Origin: Chloroflexi bacterium CSP1-4
GTDB lineage: Bacteria; Chloroflexota; Limnocylindria; Limnocylindrales; CSP1-4
NCBI GenBank assembly: GCA_001443375.1
Contig: LDXM01000001.1
Coordinates: 24,533 to 88,532, forward strand
Reading direction: 5' to 3'
Length of the DNA stretch: 64,000 bases
Under the pieces are notes generated by a model. The model was not told the origin of the DNA. It searched no databases and saw only the letters and a list, made by a program, of their open reading frames with translations. Each line of letters begins with the position of its first letter. Position 1 is the stretch's first letter. Below are positions 4,023 through 63,104 of the stretch, one piece after another. The translations under genes were made by a program, and so were the position numbers.

Positions 4023-4302
4023 AAGACGGGGAGTATAGGGGCGCCGGCCCGGCCCGGCCCCGCGTGCGGGCACGGCCGGGGCGCGGGGTGGAAGATCGGT
4101 GCATACCGGGGCCCCGGACCCGCCCCAGGCACGATTTGATACACTCCCGCCGATCGATCCCGGGCCCCGACCGCGGGCACGTTACCTGTCTGCCGCAGCG
4201 CGCCGTTCCGGCCCGCTGAGGGATCAGGCCCAAGGTGGCGCCGGCAGACCCCCATCACGATCGGCCGCTGCTGACGGCCGCAACCGAGGAGGCTCATCCA
4301 CC

Positions 4303-28698: not shown

Positions 28699-29075
28699 GT
28701 GCGCGACCGGCTGCAACGAGACCCCACGCGGCCCGTCTACGTCATCAGCGTGGCGGCGGGCATCGTGAGCGTCCATCCGCGAACATTGCGGATCTACGAG
28801 GACGAGGGCCTGGTCTGCCCGGCGCGCACCCCGTCCAACATCCGTCTCTATTCGGAAGAGGACATCCGGCGGGTCCTCTGGATCCGCCACCTGACCCAGA
28901 ACCTCGGCGTCAACCTGGCCGGCGTGCGCATCCTGTTCGAGATCGAGAAACGGATGGGCACGCGCATCCTCGAGACGCTCTTCAGCGATCCCGAGTCGTC
29001 CGCCGCGGATGATGGCGCAGACGATCCGATCCCCGTCCAGCGCACGACCACGACCCCGTCCACGAGGAGAGCCTG

Positions 29076-29076
<1 letters not shown>
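28699..29076 (+). CDS. hspR: MerR-family heat-shock regulator, HspR-like
   Basis: RPVYVISVAAGIVSVHPRTLRIYEDEGLVCPARTPSNIRLYSEEDIRRVLWIRHLTQNLGVNLAGVRILFEIE. Confidence 0.9.
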
Positions 29077-31568
<2,492 letters not shown>

Positions 31569-31610
31569 GGGGAGGGCGGGGCGGCACGCGTCGCCCTGCC
31601 GGACACGGCC

Positions 31611-32668
31611 ATGGAGTACCGCGACTACTACGCCACCCTCGCCGTCCCCCGCAACGCCGCTCCGGCCGAGATCAAGAAGGCCTTCCGGCGGCTCGCCCGG
31701 CAGTACCACCCGGACGTGAACAAGGGGAACGCGGCGGCGGAGCGGCGCTTCAAGGAGGTCAACGAGGCGAACGAGGTCCTCAGCGACCCGCAGAAGCGCA
31801 AGGCCTATGACGCCCTGGGCGCCGACTGGGAGGCCTACCAGCGCGCCGGCACCGCGGGCGCGCCGGGGGGCGACCCCTTCGCGGCGTTCGGCCGGGGACA
31901 GCGTGGGGTCCGCTTCGAGTACCGCGGCGATCCCGAGGACCTGGCCGGCTTCAGCGACTTCTTCCGCACCTTCTTCGCCGGCGGCGTGGCGGGGGCCGAG
32001 GCGAGCGCCGGGGCGGAGCATGGGCGGCGGCGGACGGCGACCGTCGGCCTGGGGTTCGATGACCTCCTCGGCGGGCTGGGACTGGACGCCGACGGAGTGC
32101 ACGCCAGGGTCGGCACCCAACGCACGGCGCCGACGGTCCGCCGGAGCCTGCAGGCCGAGGTGAAGATCTCGCTCGAGGAGGCCTACCACGGCACGACGCG
32201 GCGCGTCGAGGTCGATGGGAAGCGCCTCGAGGTGACCATCCCCCGCGGGATCGACAGCGGCCGGCGCATCCGGCTCTCGGGGAAGGCCGGCCGCGGCCCG
32301 GGCGCCGGCGACCTGTACCTCGCGGTGAAGGTGAGCGAGCACCCGGTCTTCACGCGCCAAGGCGCCGACCTGCAGCGCGACCTGCCCATCACCCTGGCCG
32401 AGGCACTGCTGGGCGCGGAGGTCCCCGTGGCCACGCTGAAGGGCCGCGTCCTCCTGCGCATCCCGCCCGAGACACAGGCCGGCCGCGTCTTCCGTCTGGC
32501 CGGCCAGGGCATGCCGCGCTTCCGCGCCGAGGGCTTCGGCGATCTCTTTGCGAAGGTCCGCGTGGTCCTGCCCGGCGGTCTCGACGAGGCCGACCGGGCA
32601 CGCCTGCGCGACTTCACCGACCACGTCCGCCAACCCGATCCCCGAGCCACGAGCGGAGCCCCGCAGCG

Positions 32669-43482: not shown

Positions 43483-44193
43483 CTAGGCGCCCCTTCGGCG
43501 GGCCAGGGCGATCGCGCCACCGACGACCAGGACCAGGAGCCCGAGCGCTGGGAGCGCGACAGACGGGCCTGGTTCCCCAGGGCCTCCCGCCGGCGGATCC
43601 GTCGCTGCCGGTGAAGACGACGGGCTGGAGGCCGGCGCCGAGGTGGAAGCGGTGGCGCTCGACGTGGGAGCCGCCGTCGGGGATGGGGAGAGGGTCGCCG
43701 ACGCCGTCGGCGCAGGCGTGGACGTGGGGCTCGGGGTCGGGCTGGCGGTCGGCTTCGAGGTCGGCTTCGAGGTCGGCTTCGGCGTGGGCTTCGGCGTGGA
43801 CTGCGCCGTCGGCTGCGGGGTCCCCGGCGCCTTGACCACGATCTTGCCGACCATCTGCTCAGAGTGGACCTCGCAGAAGTACGGGTATGTCCCCGGCGTC
43901 GTGAACGTCCACTCGAAGGTCGGTCGCGGCTCGTCGAGCCCGATGATCCCGGAGTCGAACTTCCCGTCCGGCAGGGGGGGTGTCCCCGACGTCACGCTGT
44001 GGGGCTCGCCGGCGAACGTCCAGCGCACCGTGTCACCCACGCCGACCGTGAGCGAAGCGGGCCCAAAGCGGTAGTTCAGGGCGGCGACCGTGTGCGTCGC
44101 CGCCGCGACCGGCAGCGAACCGGCCAGGCCGATGCCGAGCGCGATGGCCGCGCTGCGGGCGAGGATACGGCGCCAGGCAGGGGCGATCGGCAC
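43483..44193 (-). CDS. Plastocyanin-like cupredoxin with Pro/Thr-rich stalk and C-terminal membrane anchor
   Basis: Signal peptide, GEPHSVTSG, YPYFCEVHSEQMVGKIVV type-1 Cu site, PTPKPTSKPTSKPTASP stalk, TM + RRR tail. Confidence 0.88.
   Translation of the reverse strand: MPIAPAWRRILARSAAIALGIGLAGSLPVAAATHTVAALNYRFGPASLTVGVGDTVRWTFAGEPHSVTSGTPPLPDGKFDSGIIGLDEPRPTFEWTFTTPGTYPYFCEVHSEQMVGKIVVKAPGTPQPTAQSTPKPTPKPTSKPTSKPTASPTPSPTSTPAPTASATLSPSPTAAPTSSATASTSAPASSPSSSPAATDPPAGGPGEPGPSVALPALGLLVLVVGGAIALARRRGA
43748..43783 (-). repeat. 12-nt tandem repeat in stalk-coding region of the cupredoxin gene
   Basis: gtcggcttcgag repeated (43748-43759, 43760-43771, partial 43772-43783). Confidence 0.6.
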
Positions 44194-44376
44194 GGGGCGG
44201 CCTCCGGGTCGAGTGATCGTCGGCCATCGATACGCGCCCCGGCCGGCTCCGGTTCTGACGGGCGCCTCCCGCTTCTGGGAAACCGGGCCGGCCCGGCGTT
44301 CGTATCCACGGGCATCGCCGGTCACGGGCCACACCGCAGGCCGGCCGGCGTCGAGGACTGCGAGGAGGAGGAGACG

Positions 44377-45378
44377 ATGCGCTTCCGGATGTCCCTGTGC
44401 AGCGCCGCCATGGCGCTGCTGATCCTGCCCGGCGTCGCGTCGGCCGCCGGCCCCGACGCCCGGGATGCGACGCTCGACGGCGCCTCCGAGGTCCCCGCCG
44501 TGGCCACGGCGGCGACCGGCGACGGATGGGTCGTCATCAGCTCCGACAACACGACCGTCACCTATTTCGTCGAGTACAGCGGCCTGTCGGGCGCGCTCGC
44601 CGCGGCCCACATCCACACCGGTGCCCCGGGCGTGGCCGGCGGCGTGATCCTGCCCCTGGCGGCCGGGCCGAGCCCGATGTTCGGGACGCTGACGTCGGCG
44701 GACTTCAAGCCATCCGGCAGCGTGACCACCTTCGCCGAGGCGCTCGCCGCGATCCGCGGCGGCACGACCTACTTCAACCTGCACACCGCGGCGAACCCGG
44801 GCGGGGAGATCCGCGGCAACCTGACCGGGACCGCGGAGGCCTTGGAGGCGACCATCGACGGGGCCCAGGAGGTCCCGGCCGTGGCCACGGCGGCGACCGG
44901 CAACGGGCTCGCCGTCATCAGCTCCGACGGGACGTCGGTCGGCTACGCGGTCACCTACGGGGGCCTGTCGGGCGCGCTCGCCGCGGCCCACATCCACACC
45001 GGTGCCCCGGGCGTGGCCGGCGGCGTGATCCTGCCCCTGGCGGCCGGGCCGAGCCCGATGTTCGGGACGCTGACGTCGGCGGACTTCAAGCCATCCGGCA
45101 GCGTGACCACCTTCGCCGAGGCGCTCGCCGCGATCCGCGGCGGCACGACCTACTTCAACCTGCACACCGCGGCGAACCCGGGCGGGGAGATCCGCGGCCA
45201 GATTGGCGCGGCCGCCGCCCCGACGCCCACCGGGACGCAGCCCGCCACGTCCACGGAATCACCGATCGATCCAAACGGCGCAGGATCCGCGCTCCCGGCC
45301 CTCACATCTCTCTTCATCGTGGCGGCGGTCGGCGTCCTCGCCGGCGGCCGGCGACTCTCGTCGCGCCGGACCCGCTAG
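44377..45378 (+). CDS. Anchored protein with two tandem CHRD domains
   Basis: Signal peptide, two copies of GLSGALAAAHIHTGAPGVAGGVILPLA...NLHTAANPGGEIRG, C-terminal TM + RR tail. Confidence 0.88.
   Translation: MRFRMSLCSAAMALLILPGVASAAGPDARDATLDGASEVPAVATAATGDGWVVISSDNTTVTYFVEYSGLSGALAAAHIHTGAPGVAGGVILPLAAGPSPMFGTLTSADFKPSGSVTTFAEALAAIRGGTTYFNLHTAANPGGEIRGNLTGTAEALEATIDGAQEVPAVATAATGNGLAVISSDGTSVGYAVTYGGLSGALAAAHIHTGAPGVAGGVILPLAAGPSPMFGTLTSADFKPSGSVTTFAEALAAIRGGTTYFNLHTAANPGGEIRGQIGAAAAPTPTGTQPATSTESPIDPNGAGSALPALTSLFIVAAVGVLAGGRRLSSRRTR
44581..44817 (+). repeat. Copy 1 of 237-bp direct repeat (CHRD domain 1)
   Basis: Apparently identical by eye to 44962-45198 (offset 381 nt). Confidence 0.9.
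44962..45198 (+). repeat. Copy 2 of 237-bp direct repeat (CHRD domain 2)
   Basis: Apparently identical by eye to 44581-44817. Confidence 0.9.
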
Positions 45379-48256: not shown

Positions 48257-48613
48257 GTGACTGGACTCTGGTACGTGCTCGGCTTCGCCTTCGCCGGGTT
48301 CACGTTCGTCTTCATCACGATCGGCGCTGCCTGGCTCCTCAGCCACCGTACCCGCGGCGACCGCCACAAGGGCTTGCCCTACGAGTCGGGCATCGACACC
48401 TTCGGCGATACGTGGGGCCGTTTCGGGCTCTCCTTCTACATCTACGCCCTGCTCTTCGTCGCCTTCGACATCGAGGTCGTCTTCATCTACCTCTGGGCGC
48501 TGGTCTTCCAGGACCTGCTGGTGGGGGGCTTCGTGAGCATGCTCATCTTCGTGGGCGTCCTGCTGGTCGGCCTGGGCTACGCCTGGCGCAAGGGGGTCCT
48601 GACGTGGAAGTGA
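48257..48613 (+). CDS. nuoA: NADH-quinone oxidoreductase subunit A
   Basis: KGLPYESGIDTFGDTWGRFGLSFYIYALLFVAFDIEVVFIYLWAL. Confidence 0.96.
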   Translation: MTGLWYVLGFAFAGFTFVFITIGAAWLLSHRTRGDRHKGLPYESGIDTFGDTWGRFGLSFYIYALLFVAFDIEVVFIYLWALVFQDLLVGGFVSMLIFVGVLLVGLGYAWRKGVLTWK

Positions 48614-49299
48614 CCCTCGAGGGCAGCGGCACGACGGCGCTGGTCCCGGCCCCCGAGAACGAGGTCGTCGAGCCCATCGTCCTGCCCAACACGGTCTGGA
48701 CGCCGGCCGACCCGAGCGCCTACGGCGGTGGCCGCCCGCCCGCGGACACCCACCTGCGCGAGTGGGAGGCGACCGGCGCCCATGGCGACGACGCGCGCTG
48801 GGGCGCCCTGGACGTCATCCCGACCAAGGCCGACTACGTCCTCGACCTCATCCGCGTCAACAGCCTCTGGCCGCTCCTCTCGGGGCTGGCCTGCTGCGCC
48901 ATGGAGATGATGTCCGCGGCCACGTCGCGCAACGACATGGACCGCTTCAACATGTTCCCCTTCCGCGCCAGCCCGCGCCAGGCGGACGTGCTCATCGTGG
49001 CAGGCACGCTGACGACGAAGATGGCCGGTCCGCTGGTCCGCCTCTGGGAGCAGATGCCGGAGCCGAAATGGTGCGTGGCCATGGGCGACTGCACCTGCTC
49101 CGGTGGCCGCTACAAGCGCTCCTACGCGACGATCCAGGGCATCGATCGCCTGATGCCGGTGGATGTCTACGTGCCCGGTTGCCCGCCGCGGCCGGAGGGG
49201 CTGATCTACGGCATGCTGAAGCTGCAGCAGCTGATCATGGACCGCCGGGGCCAGTGGCGCGATCGCCGCATCGGCCCCAGCGTGCCGGACGGCGTCTGA
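48604..49299 (+). CDS. nuoB: NADH-quinone oxidoreductase subunit B
   Basis: [60 protein letters not shown]. Confidence 0.96.
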
Positions 49300-49319
49300 G
49301 CGACGGGAGGAGTCGCGCC

Positions 49320-49868
49320 ATCGACAGCGCACTGAAGCGCCGCCTCGAGGCCACGCTCGGCGAGCGGCTGTACGGTCCCGTGGCGCAGCGCCATGACACG
49401 ACCGAGATCCGCGTCGCGCCCGGCGACGTTGCGGCCGTCATGCGCACCCTGCACGACGACCCCGACCTCCGCTTCCGGCTCCTGGCGGACATCTGCGGCG
49501 TCGACACCGGCACGACGATGCAGGTCGTCTACCACCTGTGGTCGGACACGACGCCGGACTGGCTGCGTGTCATCGCCGCGGACCTCGACCGCGACGATCC
49601 GCGCGTGCCCTCGATCACCTTCCTGTGGAAGGGCGCCGAGTGGGGCGAGCGCGAGGCCTATGACATGTTCGGCATCGTCTTCGAGGGCAACCGCGACCTT
49701 CGTCGCATCTACATGCCGCCCGACTACACCAGCTTCCCGCTGCGCAAGGACTTCCTGCTGCCCGACGACGCGTCACGCTCGCCGGGTATGGGCGTGCGCC
49801 ACATGGAGCAGGCGCGCAGGCCGGCCGACGCCCCGGCCGCCGCGCCACGCAGCGCGAAGGCCGGCTGA
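49320..49868 (+). CDS. nuoC: NADH-quinone oxidoreductase subunit C (no canonical start; ATC 49320 or CTG 49296)
   Basis: PSITFLWKGAEWGEREAYDMFGIVFEGNRDLRRIYMPPDYTSFPLRKDF; GGGAGG about 9 nt before ATC. Confidence 0.9.
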   Translation: MDSALKRRLEATLGERLYGPVAQRHDTTEIRVAPGDVAAVMRTLHDDPDLRFRLLADICGVDTGTTMQVVYHLWSDTTPDWLRVIAADLDRDDPRVPSITFLWKGAEWGEREAYDMFGIVFEGNRDLRRIYMPPDYTSFPLRKDFLLPDDASRSPGMGVRHMEQARRPADAPAAAPRSAKAG

Positions 49869-49870
49869 AC

Positions 49871-51097
49871 GTGTCGACCACGCCGCAGGCGCGCGTCCGT
49901 TCGCTCGACGACCCGGAGCTCTACGTCGAGACGCCGGCCACGATCTTCGACGCCATCCCGCCCTACCCGCCGCGCACCGAGCGCGAGGCCGAGTTCTACT
50001 CGGTCCGCGAGGGCGAGATGCTCATCAACCTGGGCCCGCAGCACCCCTCGACCCACGGCGTCCTGCGCGTCGTGTTGAAGATCGACGGCGAGCGCGTGGT
50101 GGACCTCGACCCGGTGCTGGGCTACCTCCACCGGGGCGTGGAGAAGATCTGCGAGAACAGCGACTGGCACATGGTCGTGAGCCACTGCGACCCGCTCGAG
50201 TACATCGCCTCGATGTTCAGCGAGCTGGTGCCGGTGATGGCCGCCGAGAAGCTGCTCGACGTCGAGGTGCCGCGCCGGGCGGAGTACATCCGCGTCCTCG
50301 CCTGCGAGCTGAACCGGATCTCCAGCCACGCCCTCTTCATGGGCTGGCTGGCGCTCGACCTGGGCGGCCTCACGCCGATCCTCTACGGCTTCATCGAGCG
50401 CGACGAGATCGTCGAGATGCTGGCCGCGCTGACGGGCCAGAAGCTGCTCTTCAACTACATGCGCATCGGCGGCGTGAACGGCGACCTGAACCACGAGTTC
50501 ATGAGCCGCCTGGGCGACTGGATGGGCCACGCGGCGCAGCGCATCGAGGACAGCCAGACGCTGATCAACGAGAACGAGATCTTCGTCAAGCGGACGCGCG
50601 GCCTGGGCGTCATCGACCGCGAGACGGCCCTGCGCATGTGCCTCTCCGGCCCCCCGCTGCGCGCCACCGGCATCCCCTACGACGTCCGCCGGGCGCACCC
50701 CTACGGCGTCTACCCCGAGCTGGAGTTCGAGATCCCGACGCGCGAGGAGGGTGACTCCTATGCGCGCTACCAGCTTCACCTCGACGAGATCAAGCAGAGC
50801 ATCCACATCATCGACCAGGTGCTCCACAAGCTGCCCGACGGCCCGGTCATGGCCAAGCTGCCGCGCCTGCTGCGGCCGCGGCCGGGGCGCGCCTTCGCGG
50901 CCATCGAGAGCCCGCGGGGCCAGTACGCCGTCTACGCCATGAGCGACGGCACCGATCAGCCCTTCCGGCTGCGCATCCACGACCCGTCGTACTTCAACCT
51001 GCAATCCGTGGGCCTGCTGACGCCGGGCCACCTCATCGCCGACACGATGGCCATCATGGCCAGCCTGGACCCGATCATGGGCGGCGTCGACAAGTGA
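49871..51097 (+). CDS. nuoD: NADH-quinone oxidoreductase subunit D
   Basis: LINLGPQHPSTHGVLRVVLKIDGERVVDLDPVLGYLHRGVEKI; GGVDK C-terminus. Confidence 0.97.
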   Translation: MSTTPQARVRSLDDPELYVETPATIFDAIPPYPPRTEREAEFYSVREGEMLINLGPQHPSTHGVLRVVLKIDGERVVDLDPVLGYLHRGVEKICENSDWHMVVSHCDPLEYIASMFSELVPVMAAEKLLDVEVPRRAEYIRVLACELNRISSHALFMGWLALDLGGLTPILYGFIERDEIVEMLAALTGQKLLFNYMRIGGVNGDLNHEFMSRLGDWMGHAAQRIEDSQTLINENEIFVKRTRGLGVIDRETALRMCLSGPPLRATGIPYDVRRAHPYGVYPELEFEIPTREEGDSYARYQLHLDEIKQSIHIIDQVLHKLPDGPVMAKLPRLLRPRPGRAFAAIESPRGQYAVYAMSDGTDQPFRLRIHDPSYFNLQSVGLLTPGHLIADTMAIMASLDPIMGGVDK

Positions 51098-52479
51098 TGA
51101 CGCTGACGCGCTCCTGGAGCCGCCTCACGCCGGCCGGCAAGATCGTCGTGCCGCTGCTGGCGATCGTCGTGGCGCTGACGGTGGCGCTGCTGCTGGGCAT
51201 GGTCACGGGCATCGTGCCGGCCATCACGGGCGCGGTCCTGGACACGCTCGAGGCGAACGTCGGGATCGTGCGCTTCGTGGTCGCCATCCTGGCAGTGCTG
51301 CTCTTCACCATCCCCACGGCCTTCATCGTCGGCTACCTCGAGTTGAAGGCCATCGCCTTCATGAACCTGCGCCTCGGTCCCAACCGCGTCGGCCCCTGGG
51401 GCACGCTGGCGGCGGCCTTCCACGGCTTCAAGATCCTGGCCAAGGAGGACTTCACCCCGACCGGCGCCGACGTGCCGGTCTTCACGCTGGCCCCGGCGGT
51501 CGTCTTCCTGGCGCCGGTGCTGGCCTTCCTCGTGCTGCCCTTCGCGCCGGGGCTCTTCGGCCAGGACATGAACATCGCCCTGCTCTACTTCTTCGCCATG
51601 GGCGGACTGGGCGTGGTGGGGCTGATGATGGCCGGCTGGTCGAGCTTCAACAAGTACAGCCTGCTGGGCGCCCTGCGGGCGGCGGCGCAGATCATCAGCT
51701 ACGAGATCCCGCTCACGCTCTCGGTCGTGGGGCTGATCCTCCTGGCCGGCACGCTGAGCCTCAACCAGATCGTGCTGAACCAGCAAGGCAGCTTCCTCGA
51801 CTGGTACGTGTGGCAGCAGCCGCTGGGCTTCGCCATCTTCTTCATCGCGGCCACCGCCGAGGGCAACCGCACTCCCTTCGACCTGACCGAGGCCGACAGC
51901 GAGATCGTGGCCGGCTTCGCCACCGAGTACAGCGGCATGCGCTTCGGCTTCTTCTACTTCGCCGAGTACGTCAACGTCTTCCTGCTCTCGGCACTGACGG
52001 TCGTGCTCTACTTCGGCGGCTGGCTGGCGCCCATCGACATCGGCGCCGTGCTGCACCAGGTCGGCCTGACCTTCGACCCCGCGCTCGACCCGGGCAGCCT
52101 CGGCCTGGGGCTGCTGCTGGGCATCCTCATCGTGCCGCCGCTGGCCATCGTCGCCCTGGCCCTGCCCTTCTGGGCCTTCAGGAGCGGCCTGCCCTTCTGG
52201 AAGGCGCTGGTCGTCGGCTTCCTGCTCTTCAACGTCATCGCCGCCGGCGCCACGCTGCTCTGGGCCGTGGCCAGCTTCGAGGTCGTGGAGGGGCTGCTCT
52301 GGTTCATGGCCAAGACGTACGTCTTCGTGGCCATCCTCGTGTGGATGCGCGCCACGCTGCCCCGGGTGCGCATCGACCAGCTCATGGGCTTCGCCTGGAA
52401 GTGGCTCCTGCCCGCGGCGCTGGTCAACCTCTTCGTGACCGCCCTGGCCCTCATCGTCATCGACGCAGTGAAGGGCTGA
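51094..52479 (+). CDS. nuoH: NADH-quinone oxidoreductase subunit H
   Basis: AFMNLRLGPNRVGPWGTLAAAFHGFKILAKED, AATAEGNRTPFDLTEADSEIVAGFATEYSGMRF. Confidence 0.97.
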   Translation: MMTLTRSWSRLTPAGKIVVPLLAIVVALTVALLLGMVTGIVPAITGAVLDTLEANVGIVRFVVAILAVLLFTIPTAFIVGYLELKAIAFMNLRLGPNRVGPWGTLAAAFHGFKILAKEDFTPTGADVPVFTLAPAVVFLAPVLAFLVLPFAPGLFGQDMNIALLYFFAMGGLGVVGLMMAGWSSFNKYSLLGALRAAAQIISYEIPLTLSVVGLILLAGTLSLNQIVLNQQGSFLDWYVWQQPLGFAIFFIAATAEGNRTPFDLTEADSEIVAGFATEYSGMRFGFFYFAEYVNVFLLSALTVVLYFGGWLAPIDIGAVLHQVGLTFDPALDPGSLGLGLLLGILIVPPLAIVALALPFWAFRSGLPFWKALVVGFLLFNVIAAGATLLWAVASFEVVEGLLWFMAKTYVFVAILVWMRATLPRVRIDQLMGFAWKWLLPAALVNLFVTALALIVIDAVKG

Positions 52480-52483
52480 GGCG

Positions 52484-53326
52484 ATGGACTTCAAGACCCT
52501 CGTGCCGGGCATCGGGATCCTCAAGGGCATGGCCCTGACCATGCGCCGCATGTTCCAGGCCAAGGTGACGGTCCAGTACCCCGAGGTGGTGCAGGACATC
52601 TCGCCACGCCACCGCGGCCGGCTGCAGCTGCTCTACGACGAGTACGGCACCCTGAAGTGCGAGACCTGCTTCCAGTGCGCCGCGGCCTGCCCCATCGAGT
52701 GCATCGACATGGGCGGCGTGGACACGAAGAGCCGCTTCCACGTCCACTGGGGCCCCGCCGAGCAGTACGCCGAGCGGCGCGAGGAGTCGGCCCTGCGCCG
52801 CTCCGGGCGCCCGGTCCCCGACCGCACCTTCGATCCCTTCGCCGCCATCGACACGGCGGCCCTGGATCGCATCTTGGCAGAGGAGGACTACGACCCACGG
52901 CGCATGCTGACCATCCTGGAGCGGACGCAGGACGCCTACGGGTCCCTCACGGTCGCCGCGCTGAAGCACATCAGCCACGGCACCGGCGCCTGGTACGCCG
53001 AGATCTACGGCACGGCCAGCTTCTACGACCACCTCCGTCTGGAGGAGGCGAGCGGCCACGTCTTCGCCATCTGCCGCTGCCCGGCCTGCACCTTCCGCGG
53101 TGCCGGACGCGTGGTGGCCGCACTGGAGGCTGCGCTCTCCACGCGCTTCGGGCAGGCCAGTCCGGAGGGCGCGGTGCGCCTCGAGCCGGGCGACTGCCAC
53201 GGCGCCTCGCCGGAGCGCGCCCTCGTGACGCTCGACGGCGAGGTCGTCCACGACGTCGCGCCCGACGCGGTCGCGCGCATGGCGTCCCAGCTCCGCGCCG
53301 CCCACGCCACGGCGGGTCGCGCATGA
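52484..53326 (+). CDS. Fusion of an N-terminal half-NuoI (single 4Fe-4S motif) with a NuoE-like [2Fe-2S] thioredoxin-fold domain
   Basis: KGMALTMRRMFQAKVTVQYPEVVQDISPRHRGRLQL..CETCFQCAAACP, then MLTILERTQDAYGSLTVAALKHISH..AEIYGTASFYDHL..CRCPACTFRGAGRVV..GDCHGASPE. Confidence 0.88.
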   Translation: MDFKTLVPGIGILKGMALTMRRMFQAKVTVQYPEVVQDISPRHRGRLQLLYDEYGTLKCETCFQCAAACPIECIDMGGVDTKSRFHVHWGPAEQYAERREESALRRSGRPVPDRTFDPFAAIDTAALDRILAEEDYDPRRMLTILERTQDAYGSLTVAALKHISHGTGAWYAEIYGTASFYDHLRLEEASGHVFAICRCPACTFRGAGRVVAALEAALSTRFGQASPEGAVRLEPGDCHGASPERALVTLDGEVVHDVAPDAVARMASQLRAAHATAGRA

Positions 53327-54648
53327 CGCAGCGCATCCTCGCCGGCAGGAAGGGCTGGCCGAGGGTCGTCCTCGCCCGGGCCGGCGCCTACGATCCCGAC
53401 GCGGGTCTGGCCGCGGCCGAGAACGCCGGCGCCTGGAGCGCCTGGCGCAAGGCGGTCGCCGACCTCGCCCCGGAGACGGTCATCCGCTTCGTCGGCGAGG
53501 CCGGGCTGCGTGGCCGGGGCGGCGCCGGCTACCCCGCCGCCGACAAGTGGCGCACCTGCCGGGCGCAGCCGGCGGCGCGGCGCCATGTCGTGGCCAACGG
53601 CTACGGCGCGGACCCCGGGGCGGCCACCGACCGGACGTTGCTGGAGCAGGACCCGCACGGGGTCCTGGAGGGCCTCGCCCTGGCCGCCTTCGCCGTGGGC
53701 GCGACGAGGGCCTACGTGGCCGTGCGGGCGGACGCGACCGTGGTCGTGCGGCGCCTGGCGGCCGCCATCCGCGAGGCGGAGGAGGCCGGGCTCATCGGCA
53801 GCGACGCGCTCGGCGCGGGCTTCGACCTGCACGTCGAGCTGCGTGAGCTGCAGGGCGCCTTCGTGCTCGGCGAGGAGACCGTCCTGCTGCGCGCCCTGGA
53901 GGGCAAGCGCGGCATGCCCGACCAGCGGCCGCCCTACCCGGCGGTGAAGGGCCTGTGGGGCGAGCCGACCGTCGTCAACAACGTGCAGACCCTCGCCGCC
54001 GTGCCCTGGATCCTGGCCAACGGGCCGGCCGCCCACCGCGCCATCGGCGCCGCCGATTCGCCGGGCACCGCCCTGGTACAGGTCAGCGGCGCGGTCAAGA
54101 TGCCGGGGGTGCTCGAGGTGCCCATGGGCACGCCGCTGAAGCAGATCGTCGCCGCGGCCGGCGGCGCCACCGGCGAGCTGAAGGCCGTCCTGGTGGGCGG
54201 CCCCTCGGGCGGCTTCCTCCCCGCCGAGCGGCTCGACCTCCCGTACTCCCACGCCGCGCTGGCCGGGGCTGGAGCCATCGTCGGCTCGGGGACCGTGCTC
54301 GTGGTGGACGGCAGCGCCTGCATCGTCGAGCTGGCCACGCTCCTCGAGCGCTTCATGAGCGACGAGTCGTGCGGCAAGTGCATCCCCTGCCGCATCGGCA
54401 CGCGCCGCCTGACCGAGATCGGCGAGCGCTTCATCGGCGGCCGGCCGCGCCCCAACGACGTGCAGCTCCTCGGCGACCTGGCCGCGGACGTCCGCGACGG
54501 CTCGCTCTGCGGGCACGGCATCACGGCGCCCAATCCGCTCGTGAGCGGGATGCGCTACTTCGCCGCGGAGTTCGAGGACCACATCCTCCGCAGCACGTGC
54601 CCGGCCGGCGTGTGCACCCCGTTGCGTGTCGCCGGAGGCACCGCCTGA
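53323..54648 (+). CDS. nuoF: NADH-quinone oxidoreductase subunit F-like (altered FMN/NADH loop)
   Basis: GLRGRGGAGYPAADKW, GEETVLLRALEGKRGMPDQRPPYPAVKGLWGEPTVVNNVQTLA, ESCGKCIPCRIGTRR; NGYGADPGAATDR replaces NADExEPGxxKDR. Confidence 0.92.
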   Translation: MTQRILAGRKGWPRVVLARAGAYDPDAGLAAAENAGAWSAWRKAVADLAPETVIRFVGEAGLRGRGGAGYPAADKWRTCRAQPAARRHVVANGYGADPGAATDRTLLEQDPHGVLEGLALAAFAVGATRAYVAVRADATVVVRRLAAAIREAEEAGLIGSDALGAGFDLHVELRELQGAFVLGEETVLLRALEGKRGMPDQRPPYPAVKGLWGEPTVVNNVQTLAAVPWILANGPAAHRAIGAADSPGTALVQVSGAVKMPGVLEVPMGTPLKQIVAAAGGATGELKAVLVGGPSGGFLPAERLDLPYSHAALAGAGAIVGSGTVLVVDGSACIVELATLLERFMSDESCGKCIPCRIGTRRLTEIGERFIGGRPRPNDVQLLGDLAADVRDGSLCGHGITAPNPLVSGMRYFAAEFEDHILRSTCPAGVCTPLRVAGGTA

Positions 54649-54652
54649 CCCC

Positions 54653-57228
54653 ATGGCCGACCCGACCACCCAGCCCGCCGCCGCCCCGCACCCGGCCGCC
54701 GCGCCCCCGTCGCTGGCCGACCAGCTGCTCGACGTGCAGGCGCCCCAGCGGCCGCTCTCGGCGCCTGCTTTCACGATCGAGGTGGATGGGCGCCAGGTGA
54801 CGGGCCGTGAAGGCCAGACGATCCTCGAAGTCTGCCGCGACAACGGGATCGAGATCCCCACCCTCTGCTACGAGCCCAAGCTGCCCGGCTTCGGCGCCTG
54901 CCGCATGTGCGTGGTCGAGGTCGAGGGCGAGGGCCAGCCGCCCATCAGCTGCTCCCGCGCCGCCGAGCCGGAGATGGTCGTGCGCACCCAGACGCCGCGC
55001 ATCCGCCAGATCCGCCGCACGAACCTGGAGCTGATCTTCAGCGACCACAACGCCTATTGCCTGCCGCCCTGCCAGAACAAGTGCCCCAGCCGCATCGACA
55101 TCCCGGGATTCCTCAAGGCCAACGCGGAGGGCGACTTCGTCGAGGCGGCGCGCATCTTCAAGCGCACCATCCCCTTCCCCAGCGTGCTCGGCCGCGTCTG
55201 CCCGGCGCCCTGCGAGGAGCACTGCCGGCGCGACGAAGTGGACGAGGCGATCGCGATCCGCGACAGCCACCGCTACGCCGGCGACCAGGTCATCAAGGCG
55301 CAGGCGAAGGGGGTCAAGGCGCCGGTCCCCTTCGAGGTCCAGGCCTCCTCGGGCAAGCGCGTGGCGGTCATCGGCTCGGGCCCCGCGGGCGCCTCGGCGG
55401 CCTACTACCTGGCCATCGCCGGCCACGCGGTGACGATCTACGAGCGCGACCCGGAGCCCGGCGGGATGCTCCGCTACGGGATCCCCCAGTACCGCCTGCC
55501 CAAGGACGAGGTGCTGGTGCCCGAGTACCAGGGCCTGACCGACCTCGGCGTGACCTTCACCTGCAACGCCGAGCTGGGCCGCGACTTCACCATCGACGAC
55601 CTGCAGAACCAGGGCTACGACGCGGTCGCGGTGGCCATCGGCTGCTACGACACGAACAAGCTGGGCGTGCCCGGCGAGGACGCGAAGGGCGTGCTCGACG
55701 GCCTCGAATACCTGAAGATCGCCACGCTGGGCCTGCCCTACCCGGGCCACCGGGGCACGCGCGTCGTGGTCATCGGCGGCGGCTTCACCGCGATGGACTG
55801 CACGCGCACCTCCGTCCGCCAGGGCGCGCTGGAGGTCACGCTCGTCTACCGGCGCGACATGAAGGACATGCCCGCCGCGAACGAGGTCCACGAGGCCATC
55901 GAGGAGGGCGCGCGGGCCATCTTCCAGGCCGCACCCACGCGCGTCGTCACCGACAAGCGGAACCGCGTCACCGGGGTCGAGCTCCAGCGCATGCGCATGG
56001 GCGCCCCTGACGCCTCGGGGCGCCGCCGCCCGGAGCCGATGCCCGGCACGGAGTTCGTCATCGAGTGCGACCGCGTGCTGCGGGCCATCGGCCAGGGGCC
56101 GCAGCTGGGCTGGCTCGACAGGGGCGCCGCGGGCGTCGCCGCCACGAAGCAGGGGCGCCTCGCCGCGGACGGCGTCACCTTCGCCACCGGCCGGCCGGGC
56201 ATCTTCGCCACCGGCGACGTGCGCATCGGCGCGGCGACCGTCGTCGAGGCCGTCGCCGAGGGCCGGCGCGCCGCCTACGCCGTTGACGCCTACCTCAAGG
56301 GCATGGACCTCGAGGCCATCAAGACGCGTCAGACCCTGGCCGAGCCGCAGCCCGAGTTCCTCTCCATCGTGCCCTACACCGGTGAGCTGAAGGAGCCGCG
56401 CCTGCGCCTCCAGGCCATGGCCGCCGAGGTGCGCAACAAGAGCTACGTCGAGTACGAGATCCCCTACACGCAGCAGGAGGCGATGGCGGAGTCGAAGCGC
56501 TGCCTCCAGTGCACCTGCGAGGCGATCGGCTTCTGCGACCTGCGGCGCCAGGGCATCGAGTACGGCACGACCCTGGCGACGCTGGAGCCGGCGCGCACGG
56601 GACTCTCCTACCGCAGCGTCACGGAGAATCGCTTCACCGGCCACAACCACGACTACATCCGCGACGACAGCCACGCCTTCATCCTGCGCGAGCCGTCGCG
56701 CTGCATCGACTGCGGCCGCTGCGCCAACGTGTGCAAGGAGGTGGTCGGCGCCGCCTGCTACGACTTCATGCGGACGGGCTTCGACACGCTCGTGACCACG
56801 CCGCTGGACATGAGCCTGAACACGACGCCGTGCGTTTCCTGCGGCCGCTGCGCGGAAACCTGCCCGACCGGCGCGCTGATGCCCAAGCCGCGCGTGCTGG
56901 AGAGTACGACGTCGACGAGAGCCGCTGCATCCTGTGCGGCATCTGCGTGGATGCGTGCCCCTACGACGCGCTGCGCTGCGGCCCCGACTTCGAGCTGGCC
57001 CACACGAGCCGCCAGGAGCCGATGATCGACCTCCTGGCCATCAGCGCCATCGAGCGCGACACGGAGATGAGCTACGTGCGCCGCGAACGCGACTGGCTGG
57101 AGCGTGCCCAAGCCTCCGGCAGGACGCTCGACGCGGGGCGCAGCCTGCCGGTGCTGCCCTCCGGCCTCGGCGGCAACGGTCGCGGCGACGGTCGCGGGAA
57201 CGGCAGCGGCCACGCCCATGCGAAGTAG
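54653..57228 (+). CDS. Multi-domain subunit: [2Fe-2S] (NuoG N1b type) + Fer4_20/GltD-like FAD-NADPH oxidoreductase + NuoG/HydA-type 4Fe-4S dicluster + NuoI-like 4Fe-4S tail (frameshift near 56903)
   Basis: CX10CX2CX13[109 protein letters not shown]; other frame: [33 protein letters not shown]. Confidence 0.88.
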
Positions 57229-57240
57229 GACGGACCTCGC

Positions 57241-57798
57241 GTGACGCTGCCGCAGACGGTCCCCTTCCTCGGCTGGAGCTGGAACGACCTCCTCTTCCTC
57301 GTCCTCGCGACGGCGCTGCTGGGGACGGCGCTGATGGTCGTCCTGGGCCGCAACATCATCCGCTCCGGGCTCTGGATGATCGCCTGCTTCGCCACCCTGG
57401 CCGGCGTCTATGCCCTGCTGGGCACGCCCCTCGTGGCGGCCGCGCAGGTGCTCGTCTACATCGGCGCCATCAGCGTCCTGATCCTCTTCGCGATCATGCT
57501 CACGCAAACGAAGGGCGGCCCGGCGGCCCTCGTCTTCCACCATCAGGCCTGGGCCGCCGCGATCGCGGCGGTCGTGCTGGGCACGCTCCTCGCGCTGGTG
57601 GTGACCTCGACCGAGTGGCCCCTGGCCGGCGAGTACGCCGCGACGTCGGTCAGGGCGATCGCGCAGCTCCTCTTCAGCGACTACGTGCTGCCCTTCGAGA
57701 TCGTGGGCGTGCTGCTGCTGGCGGCGGTCATCGGGGGCGTCTTCCTGGCCAAGCGCGACGAGCCGCGCGACGAGCCCCACGGGGAGCGGCCCGAGTGA
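57241..57798 (+). CDS. nuoJ: NADH-quinone oxidoreductase subunit J
   Basis: [54 protein letters not shown]. Confidence 0.95.
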
Positions 57799-58106
57799 GC
57801 CAGTCGCTGGACAGCTACCTCGCGCTCTCGGCGCTGCTCTTCGCCGTGGGCACCTTCGGCTTCCTGGCCCGGCGCAACGCCATCGCCATGCTCATGTCGA
57901 TCGAGCTGATGCTCAACGCGGTCAACCTGGCCATCGTCGCCTTCGGCGCCTTCGTGCCCTCGCTGCGGGGTGACGCCTCGGTCATCGCCCTCGTGGTCAT
58001 GGCCGTCGCCGCGGCCGAGGCGACGGTGGGCCTGGCCATCGTCATCGCCATCTACCGCAACCGCCGCACGCCGCTCGTGGACGAGTACACCCAGATGCGG
58101 GAATAG
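57795..58106 (+). CDS. nuoK: NADH-quinone oxidoreductase subunit K
   Basis: [52 protein letters not shown]. Confidence 0.96.
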
Positions 58107-58112
58107 CCGGCG

Positions 58113-60083
58113 ATGCCGATGGAGCTCCTCGTCACCCTCGTGCTCGCCCTGCCCATCGCCGGCTTCGGGCTGACGGCGCTCGTCGGGCGCCGCCTCGGCA
58201 CGCGCGCCTGGATCGTCGCCGTGCCGGCCATCGTCGTCACCTGGGCCATCGCCATGGTCGTCGTCTGGACCGCCCTCTCCGGCGGCTTCGGCACGGACGG
58301 CCTGCACTTCACGCTGTACCAGTGGGTGCCGGCCGGCGACTTCACGATCGAGGCGAACTTCGCGGTGGACAACCTGACCGCGGTGCTGCTCATCGTGGTC
58401 ACGACCGTGGGCATGCTGGTGCACGTCTACTCGATCGGCTACATGGCCCACGACCCCGGCCGTTGGCGCTTCTTCGCCTACCTCAACCTCTTCATGTTCA
58501 GCATGCTGCTGCTCGTCCTGGCCGGCAACTTCATGCTCCTCTTCGCGGCCTGGGAGCTGGTCGGCCTGTGCAGCTACCTGCTCATCGGCTTCTGGTACCC
58601 GCGGCCCAGCGCGGCCATCGCGGCCAAGAAGGCCTTCCTGGCCAACCGCGTCGGCGACGTCGGCTTCGCGCTGGGCATCTTCGCCGTGTGGACGACGGTG
58701 GGCACGCTGAACTTCACAGACGCCTTCGAGCGACTCTCCGAGGGTCTCGCCGGCGGCCAGATCGAGGCCTGGGCGATCACCGGCATCGCCCTGCTGCTCT
58801 TCTGCGGCGCGGTCGGCAAGAGCGCCCAGTTCCCGCTCCACGTGTGGCTGCCCGACGCGATGGAGGGCCCCACGCCGGTCTCCGCCCTCATCCATGCCGC
58901 GACCATGGTCAACGCCGGCGTCTACTTCGTGGCCCGCGCCAACCCGCTCTTCAGCCTCTCACCGGAGGCGATGTTCGTGGTCGCCGCGATCGGCATCTTC
59001 ACGGCCATCCTGGCCGCCTCGATCGCGCTCACCCAGAACGACATCAAGCGCGTGCTGGCCTACTCCACGTTGAGCCAGCTGGGCTACATGTTCGCCTCGC
59101 TTGGCGTGGGCGCCTACGTGGCCGCCATCTTCCACATGACGGCGCAGGGCTTCACGAAAGGCCTCCTGTTCCTTGGCAGCGGCTCGGTCATCCATGGGGT
59201 GCACGAGGAGCAGGACATGAACCGCATGGGCGGCCTCTGGCGGCGCATGCCGATCACGCACGCCACGATGCTCGTCGGCTCGCTCTCCATGGCCGGCATC
59301 CCGCCGCTGGCCGCCTTCTTCAGCAAGGACGAGATCCTCGGCGAGGCCTTCAAGAATGGCTTCCTGTGGGTCTGGCTGGTGGGCATCGTGGTCGCCGCGC
59401 TGACCGCCTTCTACATGTTCCGGCTGATGGGCAAGACGTTCTACGGCCCCAGCCACGTGGACCCCGCGGTCGAGCCGCACGTCCGTGAATCGCCGCGCTC
59501 GATGACCGTGCCGCTGATCCTGCTAGCCATCCCCGCGGCGCTGCTGGGGCTCGTCCTGGGCCTGCCCTTCGGGGCCGGGCTCATCGGGCAGTGGCTGGAG
59601 CCGATCTTCGAGGAGGCGCAGCTGAACCTCGGCCTGCACCACGAGCCGGTGCAGATCCTCGGCGTCGACGGCGTGCTCATCCTCGTCAGCGTGGCCGTGG
59701 CCACGGCCGGCCTGGCCGTCGCCATCCGCCTCTTCGGCTTCCACTGGCCGCTGCGCGGCGACGACACCGAGGCGCAGCCGGAGCGCGTGGCGGCGCTCAC
59801 CGCGCGGGCGCCGCGCCTCTACCGTGCCTCCTTCCGCAAGTGGTGGTTCGACGAGCTCAACGACCTGCTCTTCGTGCGCCTCGGTGGCCGCGTCGCCCAC
59901 TTCATCTGGTGGTTCGACCGGGCCATCGTGGACGGCACGGTCAACGGCATCGGGGACGTCGTCCAGGGCGCTGGACGCGACCTGCGCCGCATCCAGACGG
60001 GGCGGGTCCAGAACTACGCGCTGGGCATCGCCATCGCGCTGATCGTCATGGCCGGCGGCTTCCTCATCGTGACGGCCCGCTGA
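58113..60083 (+). CDS. nuoL: NADH-quinone oxidoreductase subunit L
   Basis: DNLTAVLLIVVTTVGMLVHVYSIGYM, WELVGLCSYLLIGFWY, WLPDAMEGPTPVSALIHAATMVNAGVYFVAR. Confidence 0.97.
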   Translation: MPMELLVTLVLALPIAGFGLTALVGRRLGTRAWIVAVPAIVVTWAIAMVVVWTALSGGFGTDGLHFTLYQWVPAGDFTIEANFAVDNLTAVLLIVVTTVGMLVHVYSIGYMAHDPGRWRFFAYLNLFMFSMLLLVLAGNFMLLFAAWELVGLCSYLLIGFWYPRPSAAIAAKKAFLANRVGDVGFALGIFAVWTTVGTLNFTDAFERLSEGLAGGQIEAWAITGIALLLFCGAVGKSAQFPLHVWLPDAMEGPTPVSALIHAATMVNAGVYFVARANPLFSLSPEAMFVVAAIGIFTAILAASIALTQNDIKRVLAYSTLSQLGYMFASLGVGAYVAAIFHMTAQGFTKGLLFLGSGSVIHGVHEEQDMNRMGGLWRRMPITHATMLVGSLSMAGIPPLAAFFSKDEILGEAFKNGFLWVWLVGIVVAALTAFYMFRLMGKTFYGPSHVDPAVEPHVRESPRSMTVPLILLAIPAALLGLVLGLPFGAGLIGQWLEPIFEEAQLNLGLHHEPVQILGVDGVLILVSVAVATAGLAVAIRLFGFHWPLRGDDTEAQPERVAALTARAPRLYRASFRKWWFDELNDLLFVRLGGRVAHFIWWFDRAIVDGTVNGIGDVVQGAGRDLRRIQTGRVQNYALGIAIALIVMAGGFLIVTAR

Positions 60084-61621
60084 TGAGCGGCTTCCCCATC
60101 CTCACCGCGATCGTCGCCGTGCCGCTCGCTGGCGCGATCCTGCTCGCGTTCGTGCCGCGCGACCGGCCGCAGCTCGTGCGCTACATGGCGCTGGGCATCG
60201 CCCTGCTCACCTTCGGGCTCTCGCTGGCGCTGCTGGCCGGCTTCGACCCCGCGGAGGCCGCCGCGCAGGGCTTCGTGCGCAAGGAAGTCGCCGAGTGGAT
60301 CCCCGCCTTCGGCATCCAGTACAAGCTCGGCGTGGACGGCATCAGCCTCGTGCTGGTCGTGCTCACCACGCTGCTCACCTGGATCAGCATCCTGGCCAGC
60401 TTCAAGCCGATCACCGAGCGTGTGAAGGAGTACATGATCTCCTTCCTCATCCTCGAGGTGGGCATGCTCGGCGTCTTCATGGCGCTCGACCTCTTCCTCT
60501 TCTACGTCTTCTGGGAGATCGTGCTCGTGCCGATGTACCTGATCATCGGCATCTGGGGCGGCCCGAACCGCATCTACGCCACGATCAAGTTCGTGCTCTA
60601 CACGCTCGTGGGCTCGCTGCTCATGCTGGTGGCCATCCTCGCCACCGCCTTCGCCTACCAGGCCGCGACCGGCAGCTGGACGGGCGCCTTCGACTACGAG
60701 CAGCTGCGCGGCTTCGGCTTCGACACGACCCTCCAGGTGCTGGCCTTCCTGGCCTTCTTCCTGGCCTTCGCCATCAAGGTCCCCATGTGGCCGTTCCACA
60801 CCTGGCTGCCCGATGCCCACGTGGAGGCGCCCACGGCGGGCTCGGTCATCCTCGCCGGCGTCCTGCTGAAGCTCGGCGGCTACGGCTTCATCCGCTTCGC
60901 GCTGCCGCTCTTCCCGGCCGCGGCCCAGGCCTATGCGCCGGCGATCATCGTCCTCTCGCTCATCGCCATCGTCTATGGGGCCATCGTCTCGATCGTCCAG
61001 CCCGACCTCAAGAAGCTCGTCGCCTACAGCTCGGTCAGCCACATGGGCTTCGTGACGCTGGGGATCTTCGTCTTCCAGCCGCAGGCGATGGACGGGGCGA
61101 TCCTGCAGATGGTCAACCACGGCCTCATCACCGGCGCCCTCTTCCTGTGCGTCGGCGTGATCTACGAGCGCACCCACGACCGGACCATCGCCAAGATGGG
61201 CGGCCTGGCGGCGCGCACCCCGGTCTACGCGGCGATCTTCGGCTTCTTCATGCTGGCCAGCGTGGGCATGCCCGGCCTGGCCGGCTTCGTGGGCGAGTTC
61301 CTCGTCTTCCTGGGCACGTTCGCGGTCAGCCCCATCGCGGCCGCCGTGGCCACCACGGTCATGGTCCTCGGCGCGGTCTACCTGCTCTGGATGTTCCAGC
61401 GGGTCGCCTTCGGGCCGGTCTCCGACTTCCTCAAGGGCGTCGGGCAGCACCTGACCGACGTGACGCCGATGGAGCTCGTGACGCTCACGCCGCTGGTCGC
61501 CCTGACCGTCCTCTTCGGCCTCTTCCCGGGCCTCATCCTCGGGCTCATCCAGGCGCCGGTGGACTCGATCATCGAGGCCATCACGGGTGCGCACCCCGTG
61601 GCGCTGCTGCCGTGGCGGTGA
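60083..61621 (+). CDS. nuoM: NADH-quinone oxidoreductase subunit M
   Basis: YKLGVDGISLVLVVLTTLLT, FWEIVLVPMYLIIGIWGG, FHTWLPDAHVEAPTAGSVILAGVLLKLGGYGF. Confidence 0.97.
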   Translation: MSGFPILTAIVAVPLAGAILLAFVPRDRPQLVRYMALGIALLTFGLSLALLAGFDPAEAAAQGFVRKEVAEWIPAFGIQYKLGVDGISLVLVVLTTLLTWISILASFKPITERVKEYMISFLILEVGMLGVFMALDLFLFYVFWEIVLVPMYLIIGIWGGPNRIYATIKFVLYTLVGSLLMLVAILATAFAYQAATGSWTGAFDYEQLRGFGFDTTLQVLAFLAFFLAFAIKVPMWPFHTWLPDAHVEAPTAGSVILAGVLLKLGGYGFIRFALPLFPAAAQAYAPAIIVLSLIAIVYGAIVSIVQPDLKKLVAYSSVSHMGFVTLGIFVFQPQAMDGAILQMVNHGLITGALFLCVGVIYERTHDRTIAKMGGLAARTPVYAAIFGFFMLASVGMPGLAGFVGEFLVFLGTFAVSPIAAAVATTVMVLGAVYLLWMFQRVAFGPVSDFLKGVGQHLTDVTPMELVTLTPLVALTVLFGLFPGLILGLIQAPVDSIIEAITGAHPVALLPWR

Positions 61622-61625
61622 TCCG

Positions 61626-63104
61626 GTGACCGTCGCCGAGCTGCTCGCCATCGCGCCGCTCGTCTTCGTCATCGGGCTGGCCATCGCGCTCGTGGTGGTG
61701 GACATGATCCGGCCGCATGACGATCGGCTCATCGGCATCGTGGCCGTGGTGGGCCTCGTGGTCGGCCTGGAGGTCGTGCTGCTGGCCAACGGCGACGGCA
61801 CGGGGGTCTTCGGTGGCGCCTACGTGCGCGACCGGCTGACCTTCTTCCTCGACCTCGTCTTCCTGGCCATCGCCTTGCTGACGATCCTCTTCGCACCCGA
61901 CTACCTGCGCCCGCGCGGGCTGCCCATGGCCGAGTTCGCCGCCACGCTCCTCTTCGCCATCAGCGGCGCCATGCTCATCGGCGGCGCGCGCGACCTGCTC
62001 GTGCTCTTCCTCGGCCTGGAGCTGCTCGTGCTGCCGGGCTACATGCTGGCCGGCTACGCCAAGCGCGACGGGCTATCGACCGAGGGCGCCATCAAGTACT
62101 TCCTGCTGGGCTCGTTCAGCTCGGCCATCTTCCTCTTCGGCCTCGCCTTCACCTGGGGCTACACCGGCTCGACGCGCGTGGCCGACGTGGCCGTGGCGCT
62201 GCAGGGCGTGACCGGCCCCGGGCTCTCGGCAGGGCTGGCCATCGGCCTGGCGCTGCTGACGTCGGGCGTCGCCTTCAAGATCGCCGCCGTCCCCTTCCAC
62301 TACTGGACGCCCGACGCGTACCAGGGCTCGCCCACGCCGGTCACGGGCTACCTCTCGGTGGGGCCGAAGGTGGCCGCCTTCGCGCTCATCCTGCGCCTCT
62401 TCGTGGAGGCGCTGGCGCCGCTCAAGGCCGACTGGGTGGACGCCATCGTCATCCTCGCCGCGATCACCATGACCTTGGGCAACCTGGTCGCCCTGACGCA
62501 GGACAACATCAAGCGCATGCTCGCCTACAGCTCGATCGCTCACACCGGCTACATGCTCGTGGGGCTGGCCGCCTTCGCCGGCGCCCCGGCAGGCTCGCCG
62601 GCGGCGCAGGCCGGCCTCGAAGGGCTCCTCTTCTACGCCGCCGCCTACACCTTCATGAACCTGGGCGCCTTCGCGGTCGTGACCGCCCTGCAGGGGCGGA
62701 CCGGCGTGACCAGCCAGATCGCGACCTTCGCCGGTCTCGGGCGCCGGGCGCCGCTGGCCGGCGTGCTGATGACGCTCTTCCTGCTGTCCCTCACCGGGAT
62801 CCCGCCCACGGCCGGCTTCTTCGCCAAGGCCTACGTCATCCTTGCCGCCGTGCAGGCCGGCGGCTGGGTGAGCGTGCTGGCCGTCGTCGCCGTGCTCAAC
62901 GCGGCCGCGGCCGCCTTCTACTACCTGCGCGTGGTCGTCTGGATGTACATGCGCGAGGCGCCCGACGACGCGCAGCCGCTCACCGACTCCTGGCCGATGA
63001 AGGCCGGCCTGGCCGCCGCCGCGCTGGGCACGGTCCTCTTCGGCCTCGTGCCGGGCGTCATCATCCCGACCGCCCAGGCCGCCGCCCAGGCGCTGCTGCC
63101 CTAG
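61626..63104 (+). CDS. nuoN: NADH-quinone oxidoreductase subunit N
   Basis: ELLVLPGYMLAGYAKRDGLSTEGAIKYFLLGSFSSAIFLFGLAFTWG, FHYWTPDAYQGSPTPVTGYLSVGPKVAAFA. Confidence 0.96.
   Translation: MTVAELLAIAPLVFVIGLAIALVVVDMIRPHDDRLIGIVAVVGLVVGLEVVLLANGDGTGVFGGAYVRDRLTFFLDLVFLAIALLTILFAPDYLRPRGLPMAEFAATLLFAISGAMLIGGARDLLVLFLGLELLVLPGYMLAGYAKRDGLSTEGAIKYFLLGSFSSAIFLFGLAFTWGYTGSTRVADVAVALQGVTGPGLSAGLAIGLALLTSGVAFKIAAVPFHYWTPDAYQGSPTPVTGYLSVGPKVAAFALILRLFVEALAPLKADWVDAIVILAAITMTLGNLVALTQDNIKRMLAYSSIAHTGYMLVGLAAFAGAPAGSPAAQAGLEGLLFYAAAYTFMNLGAFAVVTALQGRTGVTSQIATFAGLGRRAPLAGVLMTLFLLSLTGIPPTAGFFAKAYVILAAVQAGGWVSVLAVVAVLNAAAAAFYYLRVVVWMYMREAPDDAQPLTDSWPMKAGLAAAALGTVLFGLVPGVIIPTAQAAAQALLP

Follow-up and report, generated by a model that had tools for sequence, protein, structure and literature searches.

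How electrons enter a complex I that has no molybdopterin-type NuoG is the question raised by an operon at positions 48257-63104 (+) of the stretch analyzed here, which comprises 64,000 nucleotides of contig LDXM01000001.1 from Chloroflexi bacterium CSP1-4 (hereafter, the window). At the NuoG position, this operon encodes a protein (hereafter, G) that carries a flavoprotein module resembling GltD, the small subunit of glutamate synthase. The host belongs to the order Ca. Limnocylindrales of the Chloroflexota, and its genome (2.59 Mb, 65 contigs, 92% complete) has as its nearest named relatives metagenome-assembled genomes that carry the label Chloroflexi or Ca. Limnocylindrales, Ca. Aquidulcis and Ca. 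Limnocylindrus among them. Our analysis suggests that the operon probably encodes a proton-pumping complex I in which an NADPH dehydrogenase of the Stn/Nfn type (Stn, Sporomusa-type Nfn) serves as the working electron input.

Profile searches of the window returned the gene order A-B-C-D-H-[NuoI half::NuoE]-F-[Fer2::GltD::4Fe-4S]-J-K-L-M-N, with the membrane arm (A, H, J, K, L, M, and N) and the Q-module (B, C, and D) completely represented among the Pfam and NCBIfam matches. An earlier note on this DNA had proposed this order and these coordinates from the letters of the sequence, together with a half-NuoI::NuoE fusion at 52484-53326, a NuoF at 53323-54648, and a GltD-type module instead of a molybdopterin NuoG, and the searches bore out each of these assignments. 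More specifically, the fusion matches TIGR01971 (model positions 1-66) and PF01257 (residues 128-270), and NuoF matches PF01512, PF10531, and PF10589. A Pfam scan of G detected Fer2_4 (residues 40-114), Fer4_20 (136-216), Pyr_redox_2 (236-537), and 4Fe-4S stretches, and no molybdopterin domain, and the NuoG-like CX10CX2CX13C spacing that the note had described is exact. The GltD module is inserted between the motifs HxxxCxxxCxxxCP and CxxCxCxxxxxC, the counterparts of two motifs in StnC and NsoC; the left motif is identical in StnC, and the right one reads CxxCxCxxxxC there. The features of the operon are as follows.

48257..48613 (+), nuoA (PF00507, 109 bits)
48610..49299 (+), nuoB, N2 cluster subunit, with an inferred start codon (TIGR01957, 214 bits; PF01058)
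49296..49868 (+), nuoC, the sole PF00329 match in the genome
49871..51097 (+), nuoD (PF00346, TIGR01962; NuoD tree)
51094..52479 (+), nuoH (PF00146)
52484..53326 (+), first half of NuoI fused to NuoE, kept in 20/20 relatives
52658..52693 (+), NuoI motif 1, CETCFQCAAACP (CxxCxxCxxxCP), with invariant cysteines
53072..53209 (+), remnant of the NuoE [2Fe-2S] site; CRCPAC retained, second pair reduced to CHGAS
53323..54648 (+), nuoF of canonical length
53596..53619 (+), degenerate flavin mononucleotide (FMN)/NADH motif NGYGADPG of NuoF
54653..56898 (+), in-frame part of G, with the Fer2 [2Fe-2S] domain, the GltD-type flavin adenine dinucleotide (FAD)/NADPH module, and two [4Fe-4S] sites
54866..54952 (+), N1b-type [2Fe-2S] site, CX10CX2CX13C
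55046..55087 (+), HxxxCxxxCxxxCP, left border of the GltD insertion in the NuoG cluster loop
55199..55282 (+), cysteine triad CPAPCEEHC and a conserved His (SHRYAG) at the position of StnC Lys170
55373..55390 (+), FAD motif GxGxxG (GSGPAG)
55775..55855 (+), NADPH Rossmann motif GGGFTAMD...YRR
56501..56536 (+), CxxCxCxxxxxC, right border of the GltD insertion, with a counterpart motif in StnC
56702..56863 (+), two [4Fe-4S] motifs of the NuoG/hydrogenase type (PF12838, Fer4_Nqo3)
56896..56910 (+), single-base deletion, frame 2 to frame 1, found in none of the 20 relatives read
56899..57228 (+), second half of NuoI, the C terminus of G in the other frame (TIGR01971 positions 65-116); in frame in 20/20 relatives
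56926..56961 (+), NuoI motif 2
57241..57798 (+), nuoJ (PF00499)
57795..58106 (+), nuoK (PF00420)
58113..60083 (+), nuoL (PF00361, PF00662)
60083..61621 (+), nuoM (PF00361)
61608..63104 (+), nuoN (PF00361)

Judged by its sequence, G is nearest to StnC of the Stn transhydrogenase, a family also known as NfnABC, NsoABC, or Nfn-Bfu (PMC7483475, PMC10482914, PMC9304861). The best solved-structure matches of the G homologue at locus L040 (846 amino acids, open at the contig end) were StnC (8oh5_C, 1172 amino acids), 9bov_A, and 9n5u_A, all well above complex I NuoG, and its alignment with 8oh5_C extended over residues 41-771 (E about 1e-145). A first AlphaFold2 model of G, with 21 close relatives in the alignment, reached a predicted local distance difference test score (pLDDT) of 45 and was discarded; a second, made with 32 diverse rows, reached 66 and was good for the Fer2 and GltD parts only. 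A fold search with this second L040 model retrieved 8oh5_C, 9bov_A, and 5jca_L, in the same ranking as the sequence search. Within the order, G proteins are 73-86% identical, with conserved cluster ligands, GxGxxG FAD motif, and YRR NADPH motif, and the cluster ligands and FAD motif also hold in the wider clade. As for individual StnC residues, Arg239 is kept, Cys114 is replaced by Ile, and the position of Lys170, which ligates cluster C7 in StnC, is His in every row of the split-NuoI clade and Lys in the Stn-type proteins L190 and L191.

A search with TIGR01971 found no full-length NuoI in the source genome or in the order relatives tested, as the earlier note had held for this operon. NuoI is nonetheless not half-lost, a point that the note had missed. 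The only matches in the genome that run from the model start or to the model end are two halves that cover complementary positions, 1-66 on NuoI::NuoE and 65-116 at the C terminus of G. Each half contains one complete CxxCxxCxxxCP motif, and both motifs are conserved across the order. NuoI is, to judge from these matches, split between two fused proteins rather than truncated. In a two-cluster ferredoxin fold, each cluster is bound by three cysteines of one motif plus a single cysteine of the other; in the arrangement found here, the ligands of either NuoI cluster would therefore come from two separate chains.

The second half of NuoI lies beyond a frame break in the window, where 54653-57228 had been taken as one open frame. 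Frame 2 of G is open to about 56898, and the conserved tail goes on in frame 1 from 56899, where it matches the C terminus of the relatives' G. At the break, near 56899-56905, the window has GTGCTGGAGAGTACGAC where L040 has GTGCTCGAGAAGTACGAC, with one A missing; relatives have, for instance, GAGAAGTAC and the window, one A short, has GAGAGTAC. We take this one-base break to be either an error of assembly or a mutation that arose very recently. Programmed frameshifting at 56.9 kb was weighed and set aside, since all 20 relatives read through without a shift and a single base is absent from the window.

The same fusions and gene order were found in all 20 relatives fetched with flanks. Among 80 named contigs, the gene upstream of G is nuoF in 74 of 74 and the gene downstream is nuoJ in 77 of 77, these being the contigs in which the respective flanking sequence exists. 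The comparison of synteny that the earlier note had called for thus revealed a conserved arrangement, and since 20 relatives and 80 named loci share it, the fusions are not the assembly chimeras that the note had envisaged. When the source genome and 40 relatives were surveyed, G was detected in 35 of the 41. The six absences look like assembly gaps, because NuoC is missing in four of these genomes and represented by a weak divergent match in a fifth, and the sixth (G029), which has NuoC, gave a partial G match in a later search.

In a broader sample, 98 of 400 Chloroflexota genomes contain a G-type protein (E<=1e-120), a few of which are soluble and of the Stn type. A family of the same class (f3) has the full operon, with 1.3-2 kb of additional DNA separating G from nuoJ (L177 12254-13570; also L178 and L179), and family f4 has B-D-IE-F-G (IE, NuoI half::NuoE), with NuoH and NuoJ on another contig. 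Genomes that we provisionally label Ktedonobacteria-type on the basis of kinship have a canonical complex I and a second, split-NuoI/GltD set dispersed as A-C-D-H and B-IE-F-G, with a second NuoJ elsewhere (L185-L189, L192, L194, L196 with L197, L199, L201, and L202). The idea that their B-IE-F-G cluster is a soluble enzyme was rejected, given that the A-C-D-H loci and the second NuoJ point to a dispersed second complex I.

Whether NuoF still works as the NADH entry was assessed from its active-site motif, with an intact NADH/FMN motif taken as N-x-D-E-(S/G)-(E/D)-P-G. The window NuoF (441 amino acids) has canonical domains only, without an N-terminal [2Fe-2S] domain or a C-terminal 2x[4Fe-4S] extension, and its best solved relatives are StnB/NfnB (8oh5, 9bov, and 9n5u), ahead of complex I NuoF. 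Its motif is NGYGADPG, compared with NADEGDPG in Stn and NADESEPG in a soluble NuoF encoded on contig C50 of the same genome, which served as an internal control. Asp94 has given way to Tyr, Phe, Met, or Ile in every one of 36 clade members; all seven comparison NuoF proteins (four from canonical complex I, two Stn-type, and the genome's own soluble one) keep it. In addition, the window has Glu95 changed to Gly and Ser96 to Ala within the Glu95-Ser96-Glu97 triad that contacts nicotinamide (PMC11677225). Asp in place of Glu97 was not counted as decay because Stn has it too.

The clusters on this side of the complex show a comparable pattern of loss. Cysteine 2 of the NuoF N3 cluster is Thr, Ser, or Ala in 23 of 24 members of the order and family f3, with the window as the exception, and the second cysteine pair of the NuoE [2Fe-2S] site is lost throughout. 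The thioredoxin-like [2Fe-2S] domain of NuoE is itself gone in 9 of 20 order relatives, in f4, and in the Ktedonobacteria-type members. The clade NuoF proteins form a single group (99/94 support), and those of the order relatives are roughly 50-66% identical to that of the window, compared with 74-86% for G. Collectively, the NADH/FMN site of NuoF appears to be decayed. The contrast between these decayed NuoF/NuoE sites and the conserved ligands and FAD/NADPH motifs of G is our main argument that the working flavin would be the GltD FAD, and it favors the earlier note's proposal of electron input there rather than at the NuoF FMN.

A second canonical complex I set in the genome could have supplied the missing parts; the check for one, also suggested earlier, found none, and a PF00329 search returned no second NuoC in the genome. 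Two other groups of Nuo-like genes were considered. The soluble NuoE::NuoF fusion on C50 (L003; G000:C50, 1039-3794; 610 amino acids) has a canonical FMN motif, and downstream of it lie a HoxU/formate-dehydrogenase-type Fe-S subunit and a MobA-like gene; it was rejected as a missing N module, since it sits beside that subunit and has no NuoI. The NuoD-, NuoB-, NuoH-, and NuoL-like genes on contig C33 (L200; G000:C33) are membrane hydrogenase-like and very distant from complex I. They were rejected as a second complex I because the NuoD groups in the tree with a distant hydrogenase-like branch and because a second NuoC was not found.

PntB, of the proton-translocating transhydrogenase PntAB, was detected in 27 of 27 Limnocylindria genomes tested (in the source genome at G000:C18:35975-37360). 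It was not found in the two Ktedonobacteria-type genomes tested, both of which have a canonical complex I too. This pattern fits a class that has to turn NADH into NADPH for its only complex I.

From these observations we infer the following electron path. NADPH would reduce the FAD of the GltD module within G, and electrons would pass through its [4Fe-4S] clusters, the equivalents of C7 and C6 in StnC, into the NuoG-type clusters. From there they would reach the two [4Fe-4S] clusters of the NuoI built from two polypeptides, then N2 in NuoB, and finally quinone, with NuoH and NuoL/M/N predicted to pump protons. With GltD placed in the NuoG cluster loop, electrons could bypass NuoF on their way to NuoI, which would account for the freedom of NuoF and NuoE to decay. 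These two subunits may be kept mainly as a scaffold, in which the NADH/FMN site and the off-path clusters have decayed. NADH would reach the complex as NADPH through PntAB, given that the GltD-type enzyme is the only complex I found in Limnocylindria.

Several observations weigh against an exclusively NADPH-fed enzyme, and some of them fit a dual-donor complex I, in which the NuoF FMN oxidizes NADH, GltD adds an entry for NADPH, and both routes join at the NuoG-type clusters. Every operon retains a NuoF in which the glycine-rich loop and the GEE motif are largely preserved, Glu95 is kept in 9 of 21 order members, and all four N3 cysteines and the glycine loop for FMN remain in the window NuoF, which may therefore still bind FMN and oxidize some NADH in the source species. 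Even so, the universal loss of Asp94 in the clade, the loss of N3 cysteine 2 in 20/20 order relatives, the missing NuoE cluster, and the lower conservation of NuoF than of G make two working donors unlikely, if conceivable. Other points bear on the input module itself. The His at the proximal-cluster ligand position (Lys in StnC, Glu in NfnB) leaves the potential of that cluster uncertain, the model of G is of low confidence after about residue 565, and the PntB contrast rests on two outgroup genomes only. Moreover, since GltD-fold enzymes can work in either direction, NADP+ could be reduced by reverse electron transport. An enzyme that runs mainly in reverse, with quinol and the proton-motive force yielding NADPH for biosynthesis, would be in line with the reversibility of the Stn reaction, for which NADP+ reduction has been shown. 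Against this stand the facts that no other complex I was found in the class and that PntB is already there for NADPH supply, and we consider a mainly reverse role improbable.

A bifurcating or confurcating complex I that handles NADPH, NADH, and ferredoxin, as in the predicted Geobacter Nuo-Bfu or as a membrane-bound Stn, was the other option of the earlier note. In its favor, the input module is related to Stn, which is a bifurcating transhydrogenase, and complexes of the Nuo-Bfu kind have been put forward (PMC9304861). However, the N-terminal [2Fe-2S] cluster B2 and the C-terminal clusters B3 and B4 of StnB/BfuB and the [2Fe-2S] cluster A1 of StnA, by which the bifurcating StnAB/HydBC module is defined, are all absent, loss of A1 abolished bifurcation in Stn, and the StnC-type FAD is non-bifurcating. 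With B2, B3, B4, and A1 missing, we hold this option to be very improbable, and the note's suggestion finds no support. The chance that the fusions are chimeric, or that a neighboring gltD was read through, is negligible; a frame break near 56905 and a genome in 65 fragments could have hinted at it, yet the architecture is the same in independent genomes and contigs, both across the order and class and in other groups of Chloroflexota, so that a chimera is refuted by conservation and only the one-base break looks local.

Returning to NADPH input through the GltD module, we lean towards the view that this is an undescribed proton-pumping NADPH:quinone complex I without NADH use, the sole complex I of its class and, elsewhere in the Chloroflexota, a second isozyme, in which the N6a/N6b-type clusters are each ligated from two polypeptides, with one piece of NuoI attached to NuoE and the other to the GltD protein. 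A search of the open-licence literature found no published NADPH/GltD complex I and no split NuoI. Complex I is usually taken as an NADH enzyme, and a pumping version fed by NADPH, if true, would change how the NADPH pool is linked to the proton-motive force in these soil and freshwater bacteria. It would also mean that the entire electron-input end of complex I is replaceable. The system bears on which parts of NuoE, NuoF, and NuoG are catalytic and which are scaffold, as well as on the working of a two-cluster ferredoxin domain whose parts lie on separate chains.

Elsewhere in the window, we noted a membrane-bound H+-pyrophosphatase (PF03030) at 4099-6525 and at least two copies of CHRD domains at 43864-45378. 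A 933-amino-acid open reading frame at 29009-31810 has no Pfam match and may be a shadow frame in GC-rich DNA.

Among known systems, Stn resembles the input end most closely. Both have a trio of NuoE-, NuoF-, and NuoG-like proteins with GltD at the same place in the NuoG-like protein, an N-terminal Fer2 domain, an FAD/NADPH site, and two further [4Fe-4S] sites after GltD; in Stn, NADPH reduces the StnC FAD and electrons run through C7-C6-C5-C4-C3 to StnB. Unlike the soluble Stn, the trio described here is part of a membrane complex I. The C-terminal FdhF-like domain of StnC is replaced by one NuoI half and NuoE is fused to the other. The complex also lacks clusters B2, B3, B4, and A1, its NuoF has a degenerate FMN motif, and His takes the place of StnC Lys170. 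With the 14-subunit complex I (Nuo/NDH-1), the operon shares seven membrane subunits, NuoB, C, and D, homologues of NuoF and NuoE, and, in total, a two-motif NuoI; it differs in having no Mo-pterin NuoG, a NuoI spread over two chains, a NuoE without its N1a ligands, a decayed NADH/FMN site, and an NADPH-type flavoprotein at the input. Nuo-Bfu, predicted in Geobacter and others, is likewise a complex I in which a module, in that case of the HydBC/StnAB family, takes the place of NuoEFG (PMC9304861). By its description in the sections consulted, it uses NADH and ferredoxin and has the bifurcating cluster set that is absent here, and those sections mention neither a GltD/NADPH domain nor a split NuoI for it. 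The 11-subunit complex I without an N module, found, for example, in deep-sea Chloroflexi and Desulfitobacterium (PMC5736913, PMC11238625), also has no canonical NuoEFG feed; whereas E, F, and G are absent from its operon, the Limnocylindrales operon has a replacement module fused in.

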